From positions 1 through 25,144 of IMG/VR virus record IMGVR_UViG_3300028027_000223: a DNA stretch of 25,144 bases. One strand, written 5' to 3'. Both the position numbers and the translations under genes were made by a program. Origin of the DNA: a virus. Of the stretch, positions 8,375-25,025 are shown one piece after another (the first letter of the stretch is position 1; each line of letters opens with the position of its first letter). Below the pieces are notes generated by a model. It worked only from the letters and a program-made list of their open reading frames with translations. It was not told the DNA's origin and made no database searches.

Positions 8375-8548
8375 GTGAATACTCTTACACTGCCAGAGTT
8401 AAAAGAACGGTTGAAGAGTCTAGATGAAGTTATACTTCTGGAGCTACTCGACATAGCTTCAGAAGATTTAGTTGAGACTTTTGGCGAAATCATTGAGAAT
8501 AATTATAACAGGCTTCTTAAAGAAGTAGATTGGAACGAAGACGAATGA
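8375..8548 (+). CDS. Small acidic helical protein before the reductase, 57 aa
   Basis: A 57-residue acidic protein from GTG 8375, three bases after the previous stop, ending in an ATGA overlap with the ribonucleotide reductase. It consists of leucine/glutamate helices (LPELKERLKSLDEVILLELL, then an acidic tail). Similar short acidic proteins occur in many phages, though I cannot name a function. The tight coupling to the reductase suggests co-expression, possibly only for translation. Confidence 0.6.
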   Translation: MNTLTLPELKERLKSLDEVILLELLDIASEDLVETFGEIIENNYNRLLKEVDWNEDE

Positions 8549-10452
8549 CAGCATACAGCATGACACCTTATAATACCTTTATTGCTAAGTCCAGGTATAG
8601 TCGTTACCTAGATGACAAGGGACGCAGAGAGCATTGGAATGAAACAGTAGCACGTTACTTTGATTTTATGGAGAAACACTTAGCAGAGAAACAGAAGTAC
8701 ACACTGACTAAGGAACTACGTAACGAATTAGAACAAGCAGTAGTATCATTAGATGTAGTACCTAGTATGCGAGCTATCATGACTGCAGGTCCTGCGTTAG
8801 AGCGTCAGAACGTGGCTGCATTCAATTGTTCTTATCTTCCTATCGATGACCCTAAAGCCTTTGATGAAGCGATGTATATCCTTCTCTGTGGTACTGGTGT
8901 TGGATTCTCAGTGGAGCAACAGTATGTTAAGAAATTACCTGAAGTCCCAGAGCAGTTGTTTGATAGTAAGAGTTCTATTGTTGTTTCGGATTCTAAAGAA
9001 GGATGGGCAAAATCACTTCGACAGCTCTTGGCTCTTCTATACGCTGGCGAGATTCCAAAGTTCGACGTATCACGAGTTCGCCCAGCAGGAGCTAGACTTA
9101 AGACATTTGGGGGACGAGCTTCTGGACCAGGACCTTTGGAAGAACTTTATAAATTTTGTGTCACCAAGTTTAAAGGGGCAGCAGGTAGGCGTCTCACTTC
9201 CCTTGAGTGTCATGATATTCTGTGCAAGATCGGGGAAGTTGTTGTCGTGGGTGGAGTCAGACGGTCAGCAATGATTAGCTTGTCTGATCTATCAGATGAT
9301 AAGATGGCACACGCTAAGGCAGGTAATTGGTGGGATGGTCAAGGTCAACGTGCATTAGCTAACAACTCTGCTACGTATGAAGAGACGCCATCTATTGGAC
9401 AGTTTATGAGAGAGTGGAGTTCTATCTATGAGTCACATTCAGGGGAGCGTGGTATCTTCAATCGTGAAGCAAGTAAGGCTCAGGCTGCTAAAAATGGACG
9501 ACGTGATTCGACTTATGAATTTGGAACAAACCCGTGCAGTGAAATCATTTTACGTCCTTACCAATTCTGTAATCTGTCTAGTTGCATCATTAGAGCTGAT
9601 GATACTTATGATAGTATTGCTAATAAGATCCGTTTGGCTACTATTCTTGGAACTTTTCAAGCTAGCCTTACAGACTTCCCTTACTTGCGTAAGATATGGC
9701 AAAAGAATACAGAAGAAGAAGCATTACTTGGTGTATCGATGACAGGGATATGTGATAACACTTTGTTGAATAACCCTGATGATGAATCATTACCTGCTCG
9801 ATTGGAGGCACTACGTGATATTGCTGTCGCTACAAACGCTGAGTTTGCAAATGCTATTGGAATCAATCAGAGTGTGGCTGTCACTGCTGTCAAGCCTGAA
9901 GGTACTGTATCTCAGTTGTGCAGCACTGCTAGTGGTATCCATCCTCAGCATAGCAAGTATTATATTCGACGTGTACGTGCTGATAACAAAGATCCACTAA
10001 CACAGTTTATGATTCAAGCTGGGTTTGTTGCAGAGCCTTGTGTTATGAAACCAGAGTCTACTACAGTATTTAGTTTCCCTGTAGCAGTAGCAGAAGGTGG
10101 TCTACTACGTGAAGACTTGTCAGCAATACAGCACTTGAAGTTGTGGTTATTATTTCAGCGTCATTACTGTGAACATAAACCATCAGTAACAATCTCTGTA
10201 TTAGAGAAGGAATGGATGGATGTTGGGGCTTGGACGTTCAAACATTTTGATGAGGTGACTGGTGTATCATTCCTACCTATGGATGGTGGAACATACAAGC
10301 AAGCACCTTATCAAGACTGTACTAAAGAAGAGTACGAGCAGTTAAAGCTTCTTGTTCCAGAGTCTGTTGATTGGAATAGTTTTACAGAATATACAGACAA
10401 TGTAGAGGGTGCTCAACAACTTGCCTGTACCGCAGGATCTTGTGAGATTTAA
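8545..10452 (+). CDS. Adenosylcobalamin-dependent (class II) ribonucleoside-triphosphate reductase
   Basis: A 635-residue monomeric class II enzyme that reduces ribonucleotides to deoxyribonucleotides using a B12-derived radical, so oxygen is not needed. The Lactobacillus leichmannii enzyme has 739 residues. Catalytic features line up: NCS (C95), NPCSEI (C331 and E333), FCNL (C342, 11 residues after C331, as C408/C419 in L. leichmannii) and a C-terminal pair C628/C633 in CTAGSC, matching the C731/C736 spacing used for thioredoxin re-reduction. GGVRRSA and RPAGARLKTFGGRASGPGP are also typical. ATG 8545 overlaps the previous stop; TTG 8530 would add five residues. It supplies dNTPs for the polymerase and presumably borrows cobalamin and thioredoxin from the host. 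The stop overlaps the HNH gene (TAATG). Confidence 0.95.
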   Translation: MTAYSMTPYNTFIAKSRYSRYLDDKGRREHWNETVARYFDFMEKHLAEKQKYTLTKELRNELEQAVVSLDVVPSMRAIMTAGPALERQNVAAFNCSYLPIDDPKAFDEAMYILLCGTGVGFSVEQQYVKKLPEVPEQLFDSKSSIVVSDSKEGWAKSLRQLLALLYAGEIPKFDVSRVRPAGARLKTFGGRASGPGPLEELYKFCVTKFKGAAGRRLTSLECHDILCKIGEVVVVGGVRRSAMISLSDLSDDKMAHAKAGNWWDGQGQRALANNSATYEETPSIGQFMREWSSIYESHSGERGIFNREASKAQAAKNGRRDSTYEFGTNPCSEIILRPYQFCNLSSCIIRADDTYDSIANKIRLATILGTFQASLTDFPYLRKIWQKNTEEEALLGVSMTGICDNTLLNNPDDESLPARLEALRDIAVATNAEFANAIGINQSVAVTAVKPEGTVSQLCSTASGIHPQHSKYYIRRVRADNKDPLTQFMIQAGFVAEPCVMKPESTTVFSFPVAVAEGGLLREDLSAIQHLKLWLLFQRHYCEHKPSVTISVLEKEWMDVGAWTFKHFDEVTGVSFLPMDGGTYKQAPYQDCTKEEYEQLKLLVPESVDWNSFTEYTDNVEGAQQLACTAGSCEI

Positions 10453-10826
10453 TGAAGACCTGCTCTGAGTGTAAACAAGTAAAGAGTTTAGACTTATTCA
10501 GTCCTGATAGGCGACGCTTTGATAATAAACAATCAAGGTGTCGTCCTTGTGGGTATTCTCTAAAGAAAGAAAAAAGACTAGAGAATAAACAAAAGGCTGT
10601 GCAATACAAAGGTGGAAAATGTAACAGATGTGGTTTGCTGTTTGAATGTCTTGATGTATATGATTTTCATCATCGAGATCCAAAACAAAAAGAAGATAGT
10701 TTAAATAAGCTTATGAATTCAAACTGGGATAAGATAATTCCTGAGTTAGATAAGTGCGATTTACTGTGTTCTAATTGTCATAAAATAACTCATTGGGAGT
10801 TACGAAACAAAAAGGAAAAGATATGA
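10452..10826 (+). CDS. HNH endonuclease with zinc ribbons
   Basis: A 124-residue free-standing HNH nuclease. A first zinc knuckle is formed by C4/C7 and C30/C33, and a second by CNRC (57-60) with CSNC (106-109). The HNH core is DFHH (H73, H74) followed by N108 and H110/H114 in CSNCHKITH. It would nick or cut DNA; such genes in phages are usually homing endonucleases or packaging nucleases. It sits directly after the reductase (TAATG overlap). Since reductase genes are frequent homing targets, a mobile origin is plausible; no intron or split is seen in the reductase itself. It ends in an ATGA overlap. Confidence 0.88.
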   Translation: MKTCSECKQVKSLDLFSPDRRRFDNKQSRCRPCGYSLKKEKRLENKQKAVQYKGGKCNRCGLLFECLDVYDFHHRDPKQKEDSLNKLMNSNWDKIIPELDKCDLLCSNCHKITHWELRNKKEKI

Positions 10827-12392: not shown

Positions 12393-15107
12393 TTATTGGG
12401 GTTGAAAAGAACCAAACTCAGGTGTTGTATCTTGTAAAGGAGCTGTAGGAGGAGTAAACACAGCTTCCTTGACACCACCGTACATATAACGAGGGACAAC
12501 ATTAGCTACAGTATCTGCAATTTCCTTCATGCTTGTAGGACTACGTAGTTTAAAGTCCATAGTATTCTTAATAGCTTGAAGCTTTTTAAGACCCTGACGA
12601 TCTCCCATCAGTTGTTTCAATGCCTCGTCTGTATCAGTCTTTAACTGAGCAGTTTTAGCACGAGATATTAGACGAACAGCTTTCTGAGTAGTACTAGAGA
12701 TACGATCACGAAGAGTAGATGCGACATAAGGAATATCAAGACCAGGAGCATACTGAGCTAATACGTCTAAGTTCTTTTGATCAATTACAGCACTTATTTT
12801 AGACAGGTCTGCTTTGTTTAGAGCATCAGAGACTATCATTAAGTCTTTAATTTCTTGCTGATATCCAGGACCAAACACCTTGTTGATAACAGGAGCATTC
12901 TTAGGGCTTGTTAAGAAGCCAATACCACCGTCAGTGCTATTACGAGCCTTGTCAATTACCTCAGCTTGTATATTACGCATAACAGCCTTAGAAGTCTTTT
13001 TATCAAGCTGTGATAGGTCTTTCTGAATCTTACCAAAGAAGTTAGGATCTGTAAATATTCTATTAGCAATCTGTTCGTAGTTAGGAACAGCAATTCCATC
13101 AGAATCTTTAACACTTAATACAAAATTATCAGCTACTTGCTTTTCAGCAATCTTAACTTTATCATCAAGATCCGCACGAGCAATCTTAAGAGCACTATCG
13201 TCAAACAAAGCAGCACGAAGCATTTCATCAGATCCAGGTAACTGAGCTAAAACACCGCTATCAGTTTTGTTCTTAATAAATGTCTGTAATGCTCTAGCAT
13301 CTAATGCACCGCCCTTAATTACTTTACTGTAGGCTTCTGCCATTAAAGCATTCTGAGCAATAGTAACTCCTTCTTGTCCTGCAGCTTTTAAGAAAGGACG
13401 TAGTTTATCGCCAGAGCCAATGATCTGAGGAGCTACTTGATCAGCATACTTCTTAGCGTCAATATCTTTAATACCTTGTGAATTAAAAGGAACTCCAATC
13501 TTCTCATAATAAGCTTTATCAGCTTCTACAAGAGCTTGATTCCACTTACCAGGGATCTGTTGACGAGCTCCATCAACTACATTTTCTAATTCACCTAGAC
13601 GCATCTTAGCAGTATCATCCATTTTAACTGCTCTCTGAATGCGATTGATTTCTTTCTTCAAAGAATCTACAGCTTCAAATGTAGCAGGATAATACTCTCC
13701 ATTAATAGGAGCAAAGTTTTCTGTAATAAGTTTATCTAAAGGAGTTTTACGTCCGAAGATATCTGACATGTTGTTAGCAACTACAAAGCTATGAATATCA
13801 CGTACACCTGTATCAGGAAGGACTGCACCAGCTTTTTTAGCACCCTCCAATATAGATTTATAAACAGGCTGCATTTCTTTAGTTGCAGCAGCTTCACGTA
13901 AGTCTAATAACTTAGTAGCTTGTGTACCTAAATCAGATAAATTCTGCTCAGGAAATCTCTCTACTACGCTATCTATTTTAGTGTCAATGGCTTCACGTAA
14001 TTTAAGATTTTTATTTATTTCTTTTGTAAGTGGAGTAGTCATTCCTTCTACTGGAGTGTAACGAGTACCTGCAATATTTCTAAAACCCTCATCTAGTCTT
14101 CCTAAGATAGTTTGAATCTCTGTATCAAACTGTTGACGAATACCAGCACCTTCAGGAGACTTAACCAAGCGAATAACTTCACTACGTGCAATAGGGTTAT
14201 TAGATAAAGATACAACTAGAGGAATACCTTCAACCCCAATCTTGTCGCCAATCTTATTGAATGTGTCTACAATCTCATCAATGTTTTCGCTAGGCATGCT
14301 TTTAGATACTAGCTCCATAAAATTCTTAGCTGCACCAGAAGCATAGGCTTGACTAGCTGCATCAGGATCTGCCTTAACCATTTTATATTTGTCATATAAC
14401 TGCTTACCCATGTTTGTGGTAGCGTTAGTTAAAGCCTCTAAGCCAGCAGATGTCTTAATACCTACAGCAAGACCACCAAGAGTACCTATAGCACGTCCAG
14501 TACCTGTATCAGTACCTGTTTGCTTTTCAGCCATCTCTCCTAATACACCGCCTGTTTGAGAAGTTACACCCATGCCAAATAAACCTGTAGCACGAGGAAG
14601 AGCCTGAGTAATTACTCTACCAGTTTCTGCTACAATAGATTTACCAACATCAGTAAGTCCAGTATCTCCTGCAACTTTACCTGCAATCTTCTGAATTCCT
14701 TCTTTACCTGCTTTAAATAATCCTGTTCCTAAGTATCCTACAGGATCTGCTAACATACGAGCACCACCTCCTACAACCTCAGCTACAGCACTAGGGGCTT
14801 TAGTTTCTTCTTGAGCACCTGTGATAGTCCCTGCAGCCTTCTGTAGACGCTTAATATTCTCACCAAAGGTAGGTTGCTTCTCACCAGTAATAACACCTTT
14901 AAATGGCTGAATAGCAAAAGTATCAATTAAAGCTTGACCAAGGACGGCAGTATCAGTTAGTCCTAATTTAGCTTGATTAGCAACATAGTTGTATGTGCTC
15001 ATCTTTTCTTGCGGAGACGTATCTACTGTAGCACCTACCTCAAAAGGATCTACAATACCTGTTACAGTAACACTACCTTGCTGCTCAAAAGGATCGACAA
15101 TAGCCAT
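12393..15107 (-). CDS. Large internal virion (ejection) protein, 904 aa
   Basis: The largest protein in the window. Its N-terminus carries two copies of IVDPFE (residues 3-8 and 18-23), then a Gly/Ala/Thr-rich region with hydrophobic stretches (about 95-230), then several hundred residues of charged helix. By size, composition and place after the tail genes it corresponds to the large ejection proteins of podoviruses (like T7 gp16/gp15 or P22 gp16), which leave the capsid first and form a channel through the envelope. No lytic transglycosylase motif was recognised, unlike T7 gp16. Start ATG 15107 overlaps the stop of the previous gene (TAATG). Function is inferred from context. Confidence 0.7.
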   Translation of the reverse strand: MAIVDPFEQQGSVTVTGIVDPFEVGATVDTSPQEKMSTYNYVANQAKLGLTDTAVLGQALIDTFAIQPFKGVITGEKQPTFGENIKRLQKAAGTITGAQEETKAPSAVAEVVGGGARMLADPVGYLGTGLFKAGKEGIQKIAGKVAGDTGLTDVGKSIVAETGRVITQALPRATGLFGMGVTSQTGGVLGEMAEKQTGTDTGTGRAIGTLGGLAVGIKTSAGLEALTNATTNMGKQLYDKYKMVKADPDAASQAYASGAAKNFMELVSKSMPSENIDEIVDTFNKIGDKIGVEGIPLVVSLSNNPIARSEVIRLVKSPEGAGIRQQFDTEIQTILGRLDEGFRNIAGTRYTPVEGMTTPLTKEINKNLKLREAIDTKIDSVVERFPEQNLSDLGTQATKLLDLREAAATKEMQPVYKSILEGAKKAGAVLPDTGVRDIHSFVVANNMSDIFGRKTPLDKLITENFAPINGEYYPATFEAVDSLKKEINRIQRAVKMDDTAKMRLGELENVVDGARQQIPGKWNQALVEADKAYYEKIGVPFNSQGIKDIDAKKYADQVAPQIIGSGDKLRPFLKAAGQEGVTIAQNALMAEAYSKVIKGGALDARALQTFIKNKTDSGVLAQLPGSDEMLRAALFDDSALKIARADLDDKVKIAEKQVADNFVLSVKDSDGIAVPNYEQIANRIFTDPNFFGKIQKDLSQLDKKTSKAVMRNIQAEVIDKARNSTDGGIGFLTSPKNAPVINKVFGPGYQQEIKDLMIVSDALNKADLSKISAVIDQKNLDVLAQYAPGLDIPYVASTLRDRISSTTQKAVRLISRAKTAQLKTDTDEALKQLMGDRQGLKKLQAIKNTMDFKLRSPTSMKEIADTVANVVPRYMYGGVKEAVFTPPTAPLQDTTPEFGSFQPQ

Positions 15108-16228
15108 TATTGGGGCTTTCTATATTTTGTATTATAGTATGTTGTTAAGTCTGCTTCAGTTGAATTAGGATTAGCTATTTTAGCTTTAGCTAAGAATTCA
15201 GACAAAGTTGGAGCAGTCACAGTAGGTACTTTTTTAGCTAATCCATAAGGATCAGGAAGCACTGCAGCTTGTGTCTCAGGATCAATCTTACCTTGTGCTA
15301 GAACTTTCTGAGCTTTCTTTCTACCTGTCTCATATTGATTAGCTGTATACTTTTCAAGTGCTTGTACACCTTGCAGTACTTTATCAATTTTAACATCAGT
15401 TGGAGCACCTGTTAAGAATGTATTAACAGCGTCAACAACGTCTGCACCTAAGCCTTCAGATCCTAGAATACTTTTAACTTCAGCTTGACCAATCTGATTG
15501 TCTCCTGCAAGTTTAACTAATTCACGTTTAAGCAGTGGAAGAGATGTAGGATTTTGCTTAACTTCTTTAGCAATAGCAACAATTCCTCCTATATTCTCAA
15601 GTCTAGCAAAAGGTTTAGCAGTATATTTATCAGCAATGTCTTGAGCTTGTCCAAGAACAGTTAAAGGAACTTGTCCAGGAGGAGGAGCTACACCAGAAGC
15701 AGCAATGCGCTGTCTCTTAAGCTGCTCTTCTTGATCATAGATCTGAGCAGCCCTTACAGGGTCACCACCAGCACGACGCAGTGCATCAGCATACAATGCT
15801 TGATTAACTTGTTCACCGATAACAGGCATCTTCTCACGAGTCTTCTGTTCTACAGTGGCTTCATTCAACAACACCTTCTGATACTGTGAAGCAGCTTGTT
15901 GTGCTAAGCCAGCCAATATAGGACTATTAGTCTCTTGAGCACGTTTCATTAGCCCTAAAGACAATCCCTTTAAGCCCTCTGAAGTAGATATGTCATACTG
16001 ACCCATCATAGACTGAGCTTCTTTACTTGCTGTAATCTGAGGATCTTCCATTCCAAGCATGCCTTGACCAACTCTTCCAAGCTGAGTAGCTCCTTGATAG
16101 ATACTTGCAGTAGCTCTCTGAAAAGGATCTAAAGCAGCATACTGAACAGATCTATTAAAGTCTTGTTGATTTTGTTGTTGTTGATATGACATAGGATCGA
16201 TACCAAACATATTAGGTGCAATAGCCAT
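15107..16228 (-). CDS. Internal virion (ejection) protein, 373 aa
   Basis: A 373-residue, Gln/Ala-rich, mainly helical protein. The N-terminal GIDPMSYQQQQNQQ and ALDPFQRA (DPF at 34-36) are followed by helical repeats (GLKGLSLGLMKRAQE, ILAGLAQQAASQYQ), and the C-terminal region includes VLPDPYGLAKK. Its place between the two other ejection-protein candidates suggests it is the middle member of a three-protein set, as in T7 gp14-15-16 or P22 gp7-20-16. No catalytic motif seen. Start ATG 16228 follows a 12-base gap with GGAAAG upstream. The assignment rests on context and composition. Confidence 0.65.
   Translation of the reverse strand: MAIAPNMFGIDPMSYQQQQNQQDFNRSVQYAALDPFQRATASIYQGATQLGRVGQGMLGMEDPQITASKEAQSMMGQYDISTSEGLKGLSLGLMKRAQETNSPILAGLAQQAASQYQKVLLNEATVEQKTREKMPVIGEQVNQALYADALRRAGGDPVRAAQIYDQEEQLKRQRIAASGVAPPPGQVPLTVLGQAQDIADKYTAKPFARLENIGGIVAIAKEVKQNPTSLPLLKRELVKLAGDNQIGQAEVKSILGSEGLGADVVDAVNTFLTGAPTDVKIDKVLQGVQALEKYTANQYETGRKKAQKVLAQGKIDPETQAAVLPDPYGLAKKVPTVTAPTLSEFLAKAKIANPNSTEADLTTYYNTKYRKPQ
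15131..15159 (-). promoter_or_regulatory. Possible weak promoter for the large ejection protein
   Basis: On the - strand a perfect TATAAT (15136-15131) is preceded by a 17-base spacer and CTGAAG (15159-15154), which matches only three of six -35 bases. Transcription would begin about 17 bases before ATG 15107, leaving room for AGAAAG. The site is inside the previous gene and may be fortuitous. Confidence 0.27.
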
Positions 16229-16240
16229 TATTCTTTCCTA

Positions 16241-17266
16241 TTAATCGTAAGAGTTGTAGTCAAACCAGTTGCTAGGAACATTAGGATTGCTTCCATAGCT
16301 AGGTCCTGTATACGTAGCAGGAGATCCTCCACCAAAGCTAGGCATCTTACCACCACCGCCAAAGTAAGAACTACCTGCTGCACTCAATGCTGTTCCCCAA
16401 GGACTCCATGCATTAGCTGCTTGTTGAGACTGAGCTGCTGCCATGCCACTAGTTAATAATGATTTACCAGCATTAGCACCTGCTGAAGCATTCTGACCAC
16501 CAACTTGTAATCCAAGTCCAAGAGACTGCTGACCCATCTCTTCGATAGAACCAGCTAATCCAAGTTGAGTTTGTAACGGAGCGTAACCTTGTAAAGTTAG
16601 AGGTGTTACTTGACCTAACAAGTTACCAGCAGTACCAAACATACCAGCACCGTAGGCTTGACGTTGTTGTGCAGCATTCTCTGCTTGTGTAGCTAACTGT
16701 AGATCCTGCTGTGCTATAGAGTTATAATAAGCAGCCATCTCAGGATTAGTTTGCATCATACCAGTAGATGTACCGCCTGTAGCTAAACCACCACGACCTG
16801 TCTGAAATACTTGATTACGCATACCAGCTAGTTGCTGTTCACGACCAGGAGCTAATGCAGCACGCTGGGTAGCCATGTAATCTTGACGAGCTTGCTCAGG
16901 AGAAGTAGATAGGTATTGTTGACCTAGATTAAATAACTGTTGTGCTCCTCCATATAGAGGCTGTGCAGCTTGACGCATTCTGGTAGTATCTTCCATACCA
17001 GCTTGTGAGATCATCTGATCACGAATAGCTTGCATCTCTGGTGTCAGAGTATACTTAGCAGACTCTACTCCATAAGGACCTTGAGTGAATTCAGAAGTAC
17101 CAAAACCAGTAGTAATTCCTACAGGTCTAAACTTTTGATATTCAGCAGCTTGTTGACCTGCTTCTCTCTGTTGTTGTGCTGCTTGCTCTGCAGCAGATTT
17201 AGCTTGCTGCCCCTGAATGTAGCCTCCTGCTACAACTGCTGCTGCTGCGGCTGCTCCCCATGGCAT
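16241..17266 (-). CDS. Internal virion (ejection) protein, Ala/Gln/Gly-rich, 341 aa
   Basis: A 341-residue protein with an N-terminal hydrophobic alanine stretch (AAAAAAVVAGG, residues about 4-15) that may insert in membranes, then AAEQAAQQQREAGQQAAE helix, a Gln/Gly/Met-rich middle and a Gly/Ser/Tyr/Asn-rich C-terminus. This composition is typical of podovirus ejection proteins such as P22 gp7 or T7 gp14, which form the outer-membrane end of the injection channel. AGGAGCTTAAT lies before ATG 17266, a strong ribosome site. The cupin gene ends one base upstream, so it is part of the same operon. No enzyme motif. Confidence 0.68.
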   Translation of the reverse strand: MPWGAAAAAAVVAGGYIQGQQAKSAAEQAAQQQREAGQQAAEYQKFRPVGITTGFGTSEFTQGPYGVESAKYTLTPEMQAIRDQMISQAGMEDTTRMRQAAQPLYGGAQQLFNLGQQYLSTSPEQARQDYMATQRAALAPGREQQLAGMRNQVFQTGRGGLATGGTSTGMMQTNPEMAAYYNSIAQQDLQLATQAENAAQQRQAYGAGMFGTAGNLLGQVTPLTLQGYAPLQTQLGLAGSIEEMGQQSLGLGLQVGGQNASAGANAGKSLLTSGMAAAQSQQAANAWSPWGTALSAAGSSYFGGGGKMPSFGGGSPATYTGPSYGSNPNVPSNWFDYNSYD

Positions 17267-17267
17267 A

Positions 17268-17627
17268 TTAAGCTCCTTCTTTCATAATTAATACCTCATC
17301 TATTTTGTCTGTATTTGTTTCTTCTGTTGCATGAATGCAAAACCATACTGCGTCTTGTAACGCTGTGATGGAATGATGTACACCTTTGTGTATAGTAATA
17401 CAAGCAGGAGCAGTGTACTTAATTGCTTTCTCATCTGTCTTAACAATTACTTCTCCTGATGATAGAATACTTAAATGGTCATAGTTATGAGCATGACTTA
17501 ATGCAAAATAGCCTTTAGGAAGCATCATCTGTTTAGCGTATACTCCACTAGAGAAGTGATGTTGAGTTCCTAAATCTACTTCAAAAGTTCCTTGAAGCTC
17601 TTTAAACTGTTCAGATACGGTGTGCAT
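17268..17627 (-). CDS. Cupin-domain protein
   Basis: A 119-residue single-domain cupin. Motif 1 is nearly canonical: G39, five residues, H45-A-H47, three residues, H51 in place of the usual Glu, six residues, G58. Motif 2 is visible as HKGVHH (80-85). The likely metal ligands are H45, H47, H51 and H84 or H85, an all-histidine set. Cupins range from dioxygenases and isomerases to non-enzymatic binders, so the reaction is unknown. The start lies 17 bases inside the upstream hydroxylase gene, which points to the two being made together. Found among tail and ejection genes, it may modify a virion or envelope component; this is inference. Confidence 0.8.
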   Translation of the reverse strand: MHTVSEQFKELQGTFEVDLGTQHHFSSGVYAKQMMLPKGYFALSHAHNYDHLSILSSGEVIVKTDEKAIKYTAPACITIHKGVHHSITALQDAVWFCIHATEETNTDKIDEVLIMKEGA

Positions 17628-18198
17628 TCCTATCCTTAAATAATTCTGTTCTTATGCAAACAATCATTCCTACACGATCTATATCTGAGTTGTTAGTAAC
17701 CCAGTGTGGATTAGAGTTATCAAACCACCAAGCTTCACCTTCTGTAGCATGGATGTCTCCATCATCAAATCCAAATATAGCACCTTCTTTAATTAGGATA
17801 GGAACAAAGAACTTGTCATAGTACTGTGCATGCCATCCTGCATCTGTATGTCTTGTGATATGTCCACCAGGAGGAAGCTTAGTAATTAATATTCCACCTA
17901 ATCTTTCACCTTCTACTTTAGACATCAATTCAAACACTACTTTCTTTACTGCAGGTATTTTATCTATTACTGGATACCATACTGAATCGTGCTCTGCTTC
18001 AAATCCTTTTAAATCGCCCTTTTCAAGGAAAGGTTTAATATCGTTATACCTAGCCCATATATCAGTCATCTGAGCGTGTGGTGAATTAGGAAAAGTTCTA
18101 CGTTGATCGTACTTATCAAACTCTTCATAATGGCTTAGTATCTCTTTCTGTAATTCAGAGACATCCAAGTCACTACATACTAACTCGTGTGTTACCAT
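17611..18198 (-). CDS. Aspartyl/asparaginyl beta-hydroxylase-like 2-oxoglutarate oxygenase
   Basis: A 195-residue Fe(II)/2-oxoglutarate-dependent oxygenase of the Asp/Asn (Asp_Arg) hydroxylase type. Visible features are GGHITRHTDAG with H117-x-D119, a distal iron ligand H165 in NSNPHWVTN, and R175 ten residues later (SDIDRVGMI), the usual site for the 2-oxoglutarate carboxylate. The core double-stranded beta helix spans about 100-185. These enzymes hydroxylate amino-acid side chains in proteins or small molecules. It lies directly after a tail-fibre gene (TAATG-type junction at 18198) and overlaps the cupin gene by 17 bases. A virion protein as substrate is attractive but unproven; a host target is the alternative. 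Confidence 0.85.
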   Translation of the reverse strand: MVTHELVCSDLDVSELQKEILSHYEEFDKYDQRRTFPNSPHAQMTDIWARYNDIKPFLEKGDLKGFEAEHDSVWYPVIDKIPAVKKVVFELMSKVEGERLGGILITKLPPGGHITRHTDAGWHAQYYDKFFVPILIKEGAIFGFDDGDIHATEGEAWWFDNSNPHWVTNNSDIDRVGMIVCIRTELFKDRNAHRI

Positions 18199-18971
18199 TA
18201 ATACAGTTCAGTCCAAGCAGTTACAGTCATATTGCTTACGTTTACTTGATAAGTTCCACCTGCTGGTACAATACCAGACATTGTTCCATAACTAAAATTA
18301 CTTGCAATTCCATATTGATACACAGTTATACCACCAATTATAAGTTGTGCATTACAATTATTAGATGTAAGTTGAACAGTGACATTAACCATAATAGGAT
18401 AAGAACGAGAGTTAGTATAAGAAGTACCAGAAGTTTTACTTTCAGTTCTCCAAGTTTCACCATTTAAACCCAATCCAGAGGTAACTGTCTGTGCTGCAGA
18501 AGTCCATGTAGTTCCATTAGACTTAAGAACATTCCCTGAAGTTCCAGGAGCTACTAAGTTACCTGATAAAGCAGATCCACCGTTACCAAGGATTACACTA
18601 TTAGCGGTAATAGAAGAAGCACCTGTGCCTCCATCAGCTACAGTTAAGTCAGTAATACCTACAATAGTACCACCAGTAATATCTACTGCACTCTTAGCTT
18701 GAGTAGACATGTTACCTAAACTTTGAGCAGTAATCTCTTGTTTAACATACGCTGTATTAGCTAACTGAGTTGTATTAGAACCAGTAGTAGCAGTAGGTGC
18801 AGCAGGAGTTCCTGTGAATGTAGGAGATGCAATGTCTGCTTTAGAGCTAATAGCACCAGAGATAGAATTAAACTCGTTGTCAATCTCTGTACCTTTAACA
18901 ATCTTATTAGCATCGCCAGTAGGTAATGTATCTTTAGTAGCAAAGTTAGTTGCTTTGGTGTAATTACTCAT
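18198..18971 (-). CDS. Tail fibre protein
   Basis: A 257-residue fibre-like protein. The N-terminal region includes TLPTGDANKIVKGTEIDNEF, a head or tail attachment style common in podovirus fibres. Next comes the SPTFTGTPAAPTATTG stretch and TTQLANTAYV, both frequent in tail-fibre shafts. The rest is Gly/Ser/Thr/Asn-rich beta sequence ending in a domain with several Tyr and Trp residues that could bind a receptor. No enzyme motif. It overlaps the tail nozzle gene by four bases (ATGA) and is followed by the hydroxylase. Confidence 0.82.
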   Translation of the reverse strand: MSNYTKATNFATKDTLPTGDANKIVKGTEIDNEFNSISGAISSKADIASPTFTGTPAAPTATTGSNTTQLANTAYVKQEITAQSLGNMSTQAKSAVDITGGTIVGITDLTVADGGTGASSITANSVILGNGGSALSGNLVAPGTSGNVLKSNGTTWTSAAQTVTSGLGLNGETWRTESKTSGTSYTNSRSYPIMVNVTVQLTSNNCNAQLIIGGITVYQYGIASNFSYGTMSGIVPAGGTYQVNVSNMTVTAWTELY

Positions 18972-20566
18972 AATGTTTTACCTTGTTTAAGGAAGAAGTC
19001 AATCTTTTGAATGGATAAAGGAGTACCATCAATGTCAGACTCAAAGCCTAACTGTAATACTGTACCTGAACCTGATGCTGGAATGTTAGCAATGTCTAAC
19101 GCAATACCATTAGTGTATGTAGCAATGTTGTATTCTGCTGTGCCATATTCCCACACCTCTACTCGCTGTAGTACAATACCACGAGAGAAGTAGTTACGAG
19201 TGTAGTCATAGCCCCACTTAATAGCGATAGGCTGAGCAGAACCGCCAATAGCAGTTACGTTAATACGCTTAAGGATCTTGTTAGTTGTAGCAGATCCAAA
19301 GTCAAAGTAGTTAGTAAAATAAGACATACGATAGGTAGCACCGTTATCTTCATATAGTTCATACTTACCAATGTAGCCTGGCTTACCGATGTATAGTTGT
19401 CTGTCTTGAGTAACACAGAATGCTGTAGGATTTATTTGTTTCCAGATTGTAGTTCTTGCAGCACCATTCTGTAGTACACCCCTGGTGTCAAAGCAATATG
19501 TATATCCTGAGCTAGGTAAAGACAACAAGTAGAAAGCATCAGTAGGGAAGTAAGTAGCCTTGATGTTCTTTAATGTCTCAGAGTTAACCAATGTAATTAA
19601 CTCATCTCGTACATTCTTAGATATATCTCTGAATGGTAATGACTTCTCTTGGATAACTCGCTGCAGGGAATGAACACCAGTAGAAGCTAAGAACAATAAG
19701 TCTGTACCAATAGAAGCAACAGAGTCTCTAGCTAAGCAACCAACACCTACGATAACATCTTCTAAAGCTAAGTTAGAAGGGTCTACAGGGTTACGATAGA
19801 TAACAATATGCTTAGTACAGAAGATAATCAAGAAGCCGTTGTGATCTGCAATAGCTACAATAGGATCGTTGTTAGGAACTACTTCACTGATATTTAAATA
19901 ACCTGATGTACCAGTTTGCCATTCAGCAGGGTTTAGTAAGTCACTGAAGTATACAGTCTGTGTATGTCCAGAAATATTAGCAGCCCACACACGACCATAA
20001 GCAGTCATAACGCAGTTAGGTGTAAAGCTAGATACTGTATGTCCTGATGGTAGATTAGTAGCAATATCACCTAGTCTTTGGAATCCATAAGAACCAGTAT
20101 GAGCATGAGCAGTAGCACCAAGCTTATGATAAAGTAATGTAGGATGTCCTGCTTGAGCTAAGATAGCATGCCCTGAAGGAGTAGCCCCTGTATCGTAAGG
20201 CATACCACTGATCTGCCAGTTGTCATCAGAGATAGTATATGTCAGATTACCTGTATCAGTACCATTACGAACTACAGCTTCAGTTAGAGTAGTAGATCCA
20301 GTATAGATCTTATTGTTAGCTGCAGAAATGAATACATCCCCATCATCTTTAATAAGGTTGTAGATAGCTCTAAAAGCCCCTGTAGAGGCTGCAGTAGAGT
20401 TTACCTTAGTCCACCCCTTACGAGCACCAATACGTCCGTATCTGTCGATTACGCAGTTATTAGCCTCTAGTGCAAATCCACTATCTAGCTGGATGGAGCT
20501 ATCCTGGGTATTTAAACCACTAAATCCTGGGGCTGCAATTGAGCCTGTGACTAGTTCTTCAGCCAT
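18968..20566 (-). CDS. Tail nozzle / packaged-DNA stabilisation-like protein
   Basis: A 532-residue beta-rich protein. FALEANNCVIDRYGRIGARKGW near the N-terminus, NGFLIIFCTKHIVIYRN, and LLFLASTGVHSLQR in the middle are typical of the tail nozzle proteins of short-tailed phages (T7 gp12 / P22 gp10 role), which close the tail and stabilise packaged DNA. The repeated beta units suggest a propeller-like fold. I use ATG 20566 (Met-Ala-Glu-Glu-Leu) because it overlaps the stop of the adaptor gene (TAATG); TTG 20581 would add five residues. Which of the two family names fits is not decided here. Confidence 0.7.
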   Translation of the reverse strand: MAEELVTGSIAAPGFSGLNTQDSSIQLDSGFALEANNCVIDRYGRIGARKGWTKVNSTAASTGAFRAIYNLIKDDGDVFISAANNKIYTGSTTLTEAVVRNGTDTGNLTYTISDDNWQISGMPYDTGATPSGHAILAQAGHPTLLYHKLGATAHAHTGSYGFQRLGDIATNLPSGHTVSSFTPNCVMTAYGRVWAANISGHTQTVYFSDLLNPAEWQTGTSGYLNISEVVPNNDPIVAIADHNGFLIIFCTKHIVIYRNPVDPSNLALEDVIVGVGCLARDSVASIGTDLLFLASTGVHSLQRVIQEKSLPFRDISKNVRDELITLVNSETLKNIKATYFPTDAFYLLSLPSSGYTYCFDTRGVLQNGAARTTIWKQINPTAFCVTQDRQLYIGKPGYIGKYELYEDNGATYRMSYFTNYFDFGSATTNKILKRINVTAIGGSAQPIAIKWGYDYTRNYFSRGIVLQRVEVWEYGTAEYNIATYTNGIALDIANIPASGSGTVLQLGFESDIDGTPLSIQKIDFFLKQGKTL

Positions 20567-21213
20567 TAGGTCCAGTCCCAAGCTTGTTCTTCAATATATC
20601 TACCTGATTCGATGGCTATAGCGTCTCCAAGAGACTGTCTGTATAAAGAGTACATCTCACCTGAAGTAATACCACCATCCTCACCACGCTCTGCTAAAGC
20701 CCTTGCAAAGGCATTAAATACTACAGGCTCATGAGGTACAAGAAGTACATCAGCATCTGAAGCTAAAGGTACTTGTGGTTTGATGATGTTGAAACGAATG
20801 TTATAAACCCCATTAGGAATAGGGTATAGGTCTACCTGAGTATCTCCGTTGGAGTTTAAACCATTGAAGTTATAGTATCGAGGAGAACCCTTTTCAGTAT
20901 TAGTCAGGAGGAATCTTTCATCCATCCACTTAGTAGGGGCATTTACTACAATATTATTACTGGTATCATTAAGTACATCAATGACTCTGAATCGTTGTCC
21001 AGAGCCAGTAAGTACATAGTTAAATACATCTGCACCAGTGACTGCAGTAAGGGTATCAGATAAAGCATTCCAAGGATAGGCATCTTCTGTCTGACGCTTA
21101 GCATCATTAACAAACTCACCGATCATCTTAGAATAGGCATTATCAGCTACAGAAGAAACCTCAGTCTCTCGTAGCCTTCTTAGTACGGAATTTACAAGCT
21201 GGATGTAGTTCAT
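20566..21213 (-). CDS. Tail adaptor protein (T7 gp11 / P22 gp4-like)
   Basis: A 215-residue protein with the N-terminal pattern MNYIQLVNSVLRRLRE followed by FVNDAKRQTEDAYPWNAL, characteristic of the helical adaptor subunits that sit below the portal (tail tubular A or P22 gp4 type). A central beta part (TQVDLYPIPNG) and C-terminal helices (NAFARALAERGED, EMYSLYRQSLGDA) complete the pattern. It is the first gene after the terminator/promoter element at 21224-21257. AGGA lies only four bases before ATG 21213. The next gene is the tail nozzle, joined by TAATG, as expected of a tail module. Confidence 0.8.
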   Translation of the reverse strand: MNYIQLVNSVLRRLRETEVSSVADNAYSKMIGEFVNDAKRQTEDAYPWNALSDTLTAVTGADVFNYVLTGSGQRFRVIDVLNDTSNNIVVNAPTKWMDERFLLTNTEKGSPRYYNFNGLNSNGDTQVDLYPIPNGVYNIRFNIIKPQVPLASDADVLLVPHEPVVFNAFARALAERGEDGGITSGEMYSLYRQSLGDAIAIESGRYIEEQAWDWT

Positions 21214-23451: not shown

Positions 23452-24567
23452 TTACAACTCCGCAGAAAAATTAAGTATGCCGCTTGTAGTATTTCCAACT
23501 AATGCCGCACCTTGACCAGCCACTAATCCAGCAGTTACAGTAGCAATAATACGAATACGATTAGCGTCTGATGCCGTTCCAGTTGGAACTACTGAACAAG
23601 CAGTAACTGTACTTGCAGAAGACCTAACAGAATAATCTGATGCAGTTCCGCTTGTACCAAAAGTCGGTGCAGTTCTCATGCTAACTGGCAAATAATAATA
23701 AGTTAAAAGACTTGTAGTAGCATCAACAAACCCTAAAATTCCTAATGTAGATGGATTTTCATTAAGTTGTTGATAATAGCGTTGGCAAGCTAGTAGTTCT
23801 TGGTTATATAAACGATATTCATAACCCGTACCACTAGAACCGACCTCTAATTGCACCGCAGTTAGGTAGAAAGTTGCTCCGTTTGTACCGACTACGGATG
23901 TTGCTCCTGTGGCTGATTGATAATCTGCTCCAGCCCATGCTCCAGCAGTTCCGCTATAAGTAGCACCCGCACCAACAGAAAAATGAAGATACATACCAAC
24001 GCCATTAGTTGCACCAATCCAAGTTCCCGAAGTATCACCAGCAATAGTTACGCTAATTTGTGTCCAAGTATTTGCCGTAGAAATTGTGTAGCTAAAAGGA
24101 TAACTTCTATTTCTAGCACTATTTTGAACAGAACCACCAAAAGTTCCTGTAAGGCTTGAATAAACCAATGCTGAAACTGTAATTGTTTTTGCATTAGCAG
24201 TTCCAAAATTTAAATCAGCCGTATTAAACCCTTCAATCTTTTGACAAATTGTAAGTGATTCACCAGCAGCTATTGAATAAGCCGATGTTGAAGTAAAGCC
24301 AAGATAATTTTTAAATCCTGCTGGGGTTGTTACCGAGCCAGCGTTTTGTTGTAGTGTTCCTTTTCCATTTACATAAGCATAATAAAAAAATCTATCTACT
24401 GGAAAAACTGAATCATTAGCCGTAACACTAGCACCAGCATTTCTTTGGTCAATAACCATGCTGCCATTTATTATTCTGTTTTTCATTATGCTTGCATTAC
24501 CTGCTCCAAGCACTCCGCCTTGTGTACTCGTGGTAACTGTGTCTACATTTAAATTACCATACGGCAT
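23452..24567 (-). CDS. Tail fibre / receptor-binding protein with carbohydrate-binding-type fold
   Basis: A 371-residue protein. After a short N-terminal attachment part it has NRIINGSMVIDQRNAG, a recurrent signature in phage appendage proteins, then a large Gly/Thr/Ser/Ala-rich beta region. TFYLTAVQLEVGSSGTGYEYR and LACQRYYQQL near residue 240-265 are typical of the C-terminal half of these fibres. It probably binds cell-surface glycans. By eye its codons look a little richer in GC (GCG, GGC) than neighbouring genes, which may point to exchange, but I did not count them. ATG 24567 overlaps the GIY-YIG gene stop. Confidence 0.82.
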   Translation of the reverse strand: MPYGNLNVDTVTTSTQGGVLGAGNASIMKNRIINGSMVIDQRNAGASVTANDSVFPVDRFFYYAYVNGKGTLQQNAGSVTTPAGFKNYLGFTSTSAYSIAAGESLTICQKIEGFNTADLNFGTANAKTITVSALVYSSLTGTFGGSVQNSARNRSYPFSYTISTANTWTQISVTIAGDTSGTWIGATNGVGMYLHFSVGAGATYSGTAGAWAGADYQSATGATSVVGTNGATFYLTAVQLEVGSSGTGYEYRLYNQELLACQRYYQQLNENPSTLGILGFVDATTSLLTYYYLPVSMRTAPTFGTSGTASDYSVRSSASTVTACSVVPTGTASDANRIRIIATVTAGLVAGQGAALVGNTTSGILNFSAEL

Positions 24568-25025
24568 TATTGTTGCTCCTTGCGTTTTGTACCAAGTTTA
24601 GCTAATCGCATTTTATCTTTCGTTTCTTCAGATGCTTTACGACCAGTATTAAAATGTACATCAATACCAGCTAAATATCTTTTCTGACCTTCGCTCATCT
24701 TAGCTTTTGTTTCTTCTGTGTGTGGAATACCTAGTTGTGGTTTGTGGATAACTGTTTTATATCGTCTTCCGCCACTCTCAAGATTGTATCCATTAGGAGC
24801 TAGGCTACCCATTACATTAATCCAAAACTGTTCCAGAAAATCTAATGTAGAGTGATTGTCTACATTGCTACACACTGCTTCATAAGTAAATGATTTATGT
24901 CCGTACTTCTTGTAAGCGTCAGCTAAAGCGTGTCCATGACCTTTACGAGAATGTTTCGTAATTGTCTGACCAACATACTGCTTGCCGTTAAGCGTGTTGG
25001 TAACTAAATAGACACGACCCTGCAT
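24567..25025 (-). CDS. GIY-YIG endonuclease with NUMOD3-like repeats
   Basis: A 152-residue free-standing GIY-YIG nuclease. The catalytic module is residues 1-85: VYLVT (Y6), KQYVGQ (Y17), R27/H30, Glu65 in FLEQFW and NGYN (78-81). Two DNA-binding repeats follow: HTEETKAKMSEGQK (102-115) and ASEETKDKMRLAK (131-143), NUMOD3-like. Such proteins are usually homing endonucleases that spread between related phages. It is inserted between two tail-fibre-type genes, with TAATG overlaps at both ends (25025 and 24567), so it has settled into the operon without breaking it. Confidence 0.9.
   Translation of the reverse strand: MQGRVYLVTNTLNGKQYVGQTITKHSRKGHGHALADAYKKYGHKSFTYEAVCSNVDNHSTLDFLEQFWINVMGSLAPNGYNLESGGRRYKTVIHKPQLGIPHTEETKAKMSEGQKRYLAGIDVHFNTGRKASEETKDKMRLAKLGTKRKEQQ

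Follow-up and report, generated by a model that had tools for sequence, protein, structure and literature searches.

A hydroxylase–cupin gene pair before the first ejection-protein gene of a phage: a possible cassette for modifying virion proteins

Phage 2-oxoglutarate (2OG) oxygenases have been treated as auxiliary metabolism, at least in the available parts of two studies (PMC9599517, PMC7029224). The window analysed here, the full 25,144 bases of IMG/VR virus record IMGVR_UViG_3300028027_000223, raises the question of what such a gene does when it lies among virion genes. The first-pass annotation described two overlapping open reading frames (ORFs), a hydroxylase and a cupin, within the virion operon and between fibre and ejection-type genes. 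Both ORFs and their location were recovered, as listed below.

18968..20581, (-) strand: tail hub / head-closure Hc3-like protein, 537 aa (PHROG 578 head closure Hc3, E 1e-11)
18198..18971, (-) strand: tail-fibre-like protein, 257 aa, upstream of the cassette (several PHROG tail fiber families, best E 6e-11)
17611..18198, (-) strand: hydroxylase ORF, 195 aa, predicted 2OG/Fe(II), Asp_Arg_Hydrox type; H117, D119 and H165 as iron ligands, R175 likely 2OG-binding
17611..17627, (-) strand: overlap of hydroxylase end and cupin start, 17 nt
17268..17627, (-) strand: small cupin, 119 aa; four candidate metal-binding histidines (H45, H47, H51, H85)
16241..17266, (-) strand: first ejection-protein-like gene, 341 aa; MPWGAAAAA start and Gln-rich coil; candidate substrate
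15107..16228, (-) strand: second putative ejection/internal virion protein, 373 aa; gene order as P22 gp20 / T7 gp15, from which its function is assigned
12393..15107, (-) strand: third putative ejection/internal virion protein, 904 aa; gene order as P22 gp16 / T7 gp16, function likewise assigned by position

The order on the (-) strand is fibre, hydroxylase, cupin and first ejection-protein-like gene. Most cupin-paired relatives likewise carry the cassette in this slot, flanked by hub/fibre genes on one side and the first ejection-protein gene on the other. The fibre stop and hydroxylase start have one base in common (TAATG), and a 1-nt gap separates the cupin stop from the ejection-protein start; together with the 17-nt overlap, these junctions make it very likely that translation of the four genes is coupled. 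A coupling to lysis genes, also claimed at first, was without support. Between relatives, the hydroxylase gave dN/dS values of 0.05-0.12 and the cupin 0.05-0.14, below the values of the fibre or ejection-protein genes in most comparisons. The check for conserved pairing proposed in the first-pass annotation was run and recovered the pair at about 70 non-identical loci, with either gene first. Low dN/dS and this retention are more than chance, and the hydroxylase and cupin are confirmed as real, closely coupled genes under purifying selection. The remark that no other metabolic gene is around holds for the late operon only, as a ribonucleotide-reductase-like ORF is located at 8530-10452 on the opposite strand. 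A GIY-YIG-like ORF (24567-25025, (-) strand) and an HNH-like ORF (10452-10826, (+) strand), both recognised by eye, flank the structural module and are possible homing endonucleases.

The hydroxylase matched Pfam Asp_Arg_Hydrox (PF05118) with E 2e-10 and 41.1 bits, above the gathering cut-off of 22.6. The folds of the hydroxylase and the cupin were predicted separately. The AF2 model of the hydroxylase (mean pLDDT 95.9) contained the double-stranded beta-helix and HxD...H triad of the 2OG/Fe(II) oxygenase superfamily, with fold matches at Z 14-16, and the 17611-18198 product is confidently modelled as a predicted 2OG/Fe(II) oxygenase. H117, D119 and H165 were invariant in an alignment of 37 relatives, and the iron ligands were invariant across distant relatives too. 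The early description of the active site as intact was accurate, with these three residues at the positions given; R175 is present in the window too, and is replaced in a few relatives. Three distant relatives (L298, L299, L301) were located on alphaproteobacterial chromosomes, adjoining a hydrolase-like ORF and with no phage context.

The cupin scored slightly under the cut-off of Cupin_2 (E 1e-5, 25.4 bits, cut-off 27.2) and falls in PHROG 12032/24280. Its AF2 model (mean pLDDT 91.0) resembled many small cupins (Z ~12), and the barrel carried the HxH...H and motif-2 His set (H45, H47, H51, H85), in line with the all-histidine metal set seen in the first pass. The 17268-17627 product is confidently modelled as a four-histidine cupin with a predicted metal site. 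Homologous podovirus cupins belong to PHA00672 / PHROG 12032 and 24280, and those of VPMS1, VvAW1, X14 and BA3 are located in the same slot, before a DNA ejection gene; the window clade keeps the four histidines, whereas the wider family is longer and has lost most of them. In the open-access literature searched, the cupin appeared only as a hypothetical PHA00672 protein (PMC3558961).

All four histidines were kept in 72/72 hydroxylase-linked cupins, 37/86 cupins without an enzyme partner and 0/13 SET-fused cupins. In a tree of the cupins, made quickly from few columns and with many weak forks, the four-histidine state changes once and hydroxylase presence at least 13 times, and all hydroxylase changes fall on the four-histidine side except for one weakly placed row at the root. 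As judged from these sequences, the hydroxylase appears to join only four-histidine cupins, as one evolutionary split. The four-histidine state was rejected as an independent proof of joint catalysis because it changes only once on the tree. In two loci (L012, L015) the cupin is 95% identical to that of the window, against 75-76% for the hydroxylase and 56-65% for the hub and ejection protein, which suggests cupin exchange by recombination.

Loci were gathered by IMG/VR scans with each protein, and counts were made over non-identical loci using HMM searches of stop-to-stop frames, as greedy gene models missed some cupins. In this sample, which is partly biased because some of the loci came from cupin and GNAT queries, the hydroxylase had a recognised partner at 148 of 162 loci. 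A cupin followed it at 52 loci and preceded it at 19, a GNAT followed at 66, a sulfotransferase-like ORF preceded at 11, and no partner was recognised at 14. The term sulfotransferase-like derives from a GLPRSRT motif together with a weak Pfam match (E 0.019, below the cut-off). This ORF of 154-177 aa was seen directly before the hydroxylase, replacing the cupin, in L030, L155-L157, L159-L161, L166, L172, L175, L176 and L203. Natural fusions of the hydroxylase were found once with a cupin (L190) and once with a GNAT (L413). The hydroxylase itself is accessory, as close relatives such as L054 carry the cupin directly behind the fibre. Bacterial relatives were mostly Burkholderiales loci, which share the late-gene layout and are therefore probably prophages. 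Cultured phages bearing the hydroxylase include Pseudomonas fluorescens phage PfAn1 and DC33. The latter (Limnohabitans phage DC33, PQ492659.1; L108) has Inoviridae in its taxonomy line, yet its 39-kb genome carries genes resembling the large terminase and portal of tailed phages.

P22 gene 14 (order 10-26-14-7) and, in T7, gene 13 (order 12-13-14) occupy the corresponding position. The product of 16241-17266 had no Pfam or PHROG match of its own; its place and N-terminal type match annotated DNA ejection proteins of relatives. When the slot was surveyed from the ejection-gene side, 76 non-identical slots contained a cupin (51), a cupin-SET fusion (8), a GNAT (3), a hydroxylase with a cupin (1) or other proteins (13); cupin, cupin-SET methyltransferase fusion or GNAT were thus present in 63/76. 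Lone cupins are the commonest occupants, so a helper role for the hydroxylase does not fully describe the cupin. The fused SET domains retain the catalytic NHS..PN-type and DY motifs, and their cupins have lost the four-histidine site. Cupins with a C-terminal SET domain (lysine methyltransferase type) were seen in L114, L123, L112, L125, L127 and eight loci among L210-L278. Slot proteins of 150-156 aa with no family match, probably helical, were seen in four loci (L222 3520-3990, L248 3553-4008, L252 3526-3978, L277 3529-3999), and a strongly conserved ORF of 110-111 aa between fibre and cupin in many relatives (L216, L220, L228, L233, L236, L240, L262, L266, L276).

An ejection-type gene came next after 129 of 152 hydroxylase cassettes, compared with 63 of 2321 positions (2.7%) drawn at random from these loci, a descriptive contrast in which ejection-type was called by a simple N-terminal rule set after examples had been seen. 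DC33-like phages carry the hydroxylase-GNAT pair between terminase and portal, and directly after it an ejection-protein-like product of 107-120 aa whose start is hydrophobic and rich in Ala/Gly and which contains a Gln-rich stretch.

The folds that recur in the slot (AspH-type hydroxylase, SET, GNAT) are ones often used for protein modification, and modification of a virion protein is the simplest account. Tentatively, we read the hydroxylase and cupin as a late cassette for protein modification that targets a virion component, an ejection protein being the likeliest one, and hold this somewhat short of an even expectation. The alternation of GNAT and SET in the slot raises the likelihood of a virion substrate, as does the ejection-type adjacency even where the cassette is located elsewhere in the genome. 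The tail fibre, initially suggested as target, is not supported, given that the ejection-type gene is consistently 3' of the cassette and no fibre residue tracks the hydroxylase. In a comparison of 20-25 bearers with 4-5 hydroxylase-free close relatives, no hydroxylase-tracking residue was found in conserved columns of the hub, fibre, adaptor, ejection A/B or cupin. Counting against modification are the dispensability of the hydroxylase in close relatives and the many slot cupins without a metal site.

In another explanation, rather unlikely in our judgement, the folds are mainly assembly factors or virion parts: the cupin would be a chaperone or minor structural protein loading ejection proteins, and the hydroxylase an added binding subunit. 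Such a loading role has been suggested for T7 gp13 (Pfam: probable scaffold protein) and P22 gp14 (head morphogenesis), which are of similar size and likewise encoded after the hub/tail genes and ahead of the first ejection protein, but neither the cupin nor the hydroxylase resembles them detectably in sequence. P22 gp14 was compared with the slot GNAT proteins using a very shallow gp14 alignment (hhalign probability 0.5%), and T7 gp13 matched a spermine/spermidine acetyltransferase at E 0.39 only. Most slot cupins are without an enzyme partner, many have lost the metal site, and PHROG names their family short tail fiber / tail fiber adhesin, all consistent with such a role. That name, however, comes from annotation, and no proteomic support for the cupin as short tail fibre or adhesin was found in the open-access literature searched; the iron ligands invariant across distant hydroxylases and the conserved SET motifs also argue against this explanation.

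Late-operon genes of phages can act on the host. An enzyme of this kind could hydroxylate a host protein or a host envelope component such as lipid A, the substrate of LpxO, for release or for excluding other phages, which we consider improbable. The window hydroxylase shares its Pfam domain PF05118 with human AspH and bacterial LpxO, keeps the His ligands, matches the AspH fold at Z 15.0 and has a weak LpxO similarity. The NCBIfam LpxO score of 15.7 bits, however, is far from the cut-off of 500, and LpxO membership was rejected; no membrane segment was found in the hydroxylase (maximum 19-residue hydropathy 0.88), and the ejection-type adjacency, kept when the cassette is elsewhere in the genome, also counts against a host target. 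Unlike AspH and LpxO, the hydroxylase is small and soluble and consists of one domain with the full HxD...H triad; it lacks the TPR domain of AspH, and in phage loci it always adjoins phage late genes. A role in defence or counter-defence was also rejected, with no PADLOC match.

Free proline hydroxylases (cis-4, 3-) were the top sequence and fold matches of the window hydroxylase. The closest folds were proline 3-hydroxylase (Z 16.0) and a nucleoside antibiotic biosynthesis hydroxylase (Z 15.5), followed by L-proline cis-4-hydroxylase (Z 15.0; sequence match E 4e-5) and, equally, AspH; with Z so similar for proline hydroxylases and AspH, the fold cannot separate protein from free amino acid substrates. 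Identity to the free proline hydroxylases is ~14-18%, and the window protein is without the extra C-terminal part of those 260-290 aa enzymes and has a gene context of virion assembly. Ordinary metabolic cargo, in which a free-amino-acid or small-molecule hydroxylase is followed by a cupin processing its product, agrees with these matches but is very improbable, as AspH, a protein hydroxylase, ties at Z 15.0, no pathway genes lie beside the pair, and partners vary while the ejection-type gene is constant.

Under modification of a virion protein, the cassette would be expressed late, from its place ahead of the first ejection-protein gene. With O2 and 2-oxoglutarate at its HxD...H iron centre, the hydroxylase would hydroxylate a side chain on a freshly synthesised virion protein during assembly, and the best substrate candidate would be the product of the next gene, the gp7/gp14-like ejection protein. 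As core protein of the slot and here with four metal-binding His, the cupin would work jointly with the hydroxylase; it may be a second metalloenzyme for that substrate or the component holding it. Where a relative has a GNAT or sulfotransferase-like partner, hydroxylation may be followed by capping of the new hydroxyl. An ejection protein must be loaded into the particle and then pushed out, and the modification may affect ejection. The wider proposal, that in short-tailed phages a swappable enzyme cassette (hydroxylase, SET methyltransferase, GNAT, sulfotransferase-like, cupin) puts post-translational modifications on ejection proteins during assembly, here as hydroxylation jointly by the 2OG hydroxylase and four-histidine cupin, is a more doubtful possibility.

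Auxiliary 2OG oxygenases of marine phages are phage-borne too and include Asp/Asn hydroxylase-type genes in pelagimyophages, but the cupin/GNAT pairing and the position beside ejection genes are not described in the available parts of those reports (PMC9599517, PMC7029224). No description of the slot or of modified ejection proteins was found in the open-access literature, most subscription journals being outside its range.

Ejection proteins are poorly understood, and the cassette, present next to ejection genes in many short-tailed phages, suggests that these phages may chemically modify parts of their own infection machinery. The labels 'auxiliary metabolic' for the hydroxylase and 'short tail fibre' for the cupin may be wrong. 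With cultured hydroxylase-bearing phages in existence (PfAn1, DC33), the hypothesis is directly testable. If true, it would add a new layer to genome delivery and give a reason for the frequent occupancy of the P22 gene 14 / T7 gene 13 position.
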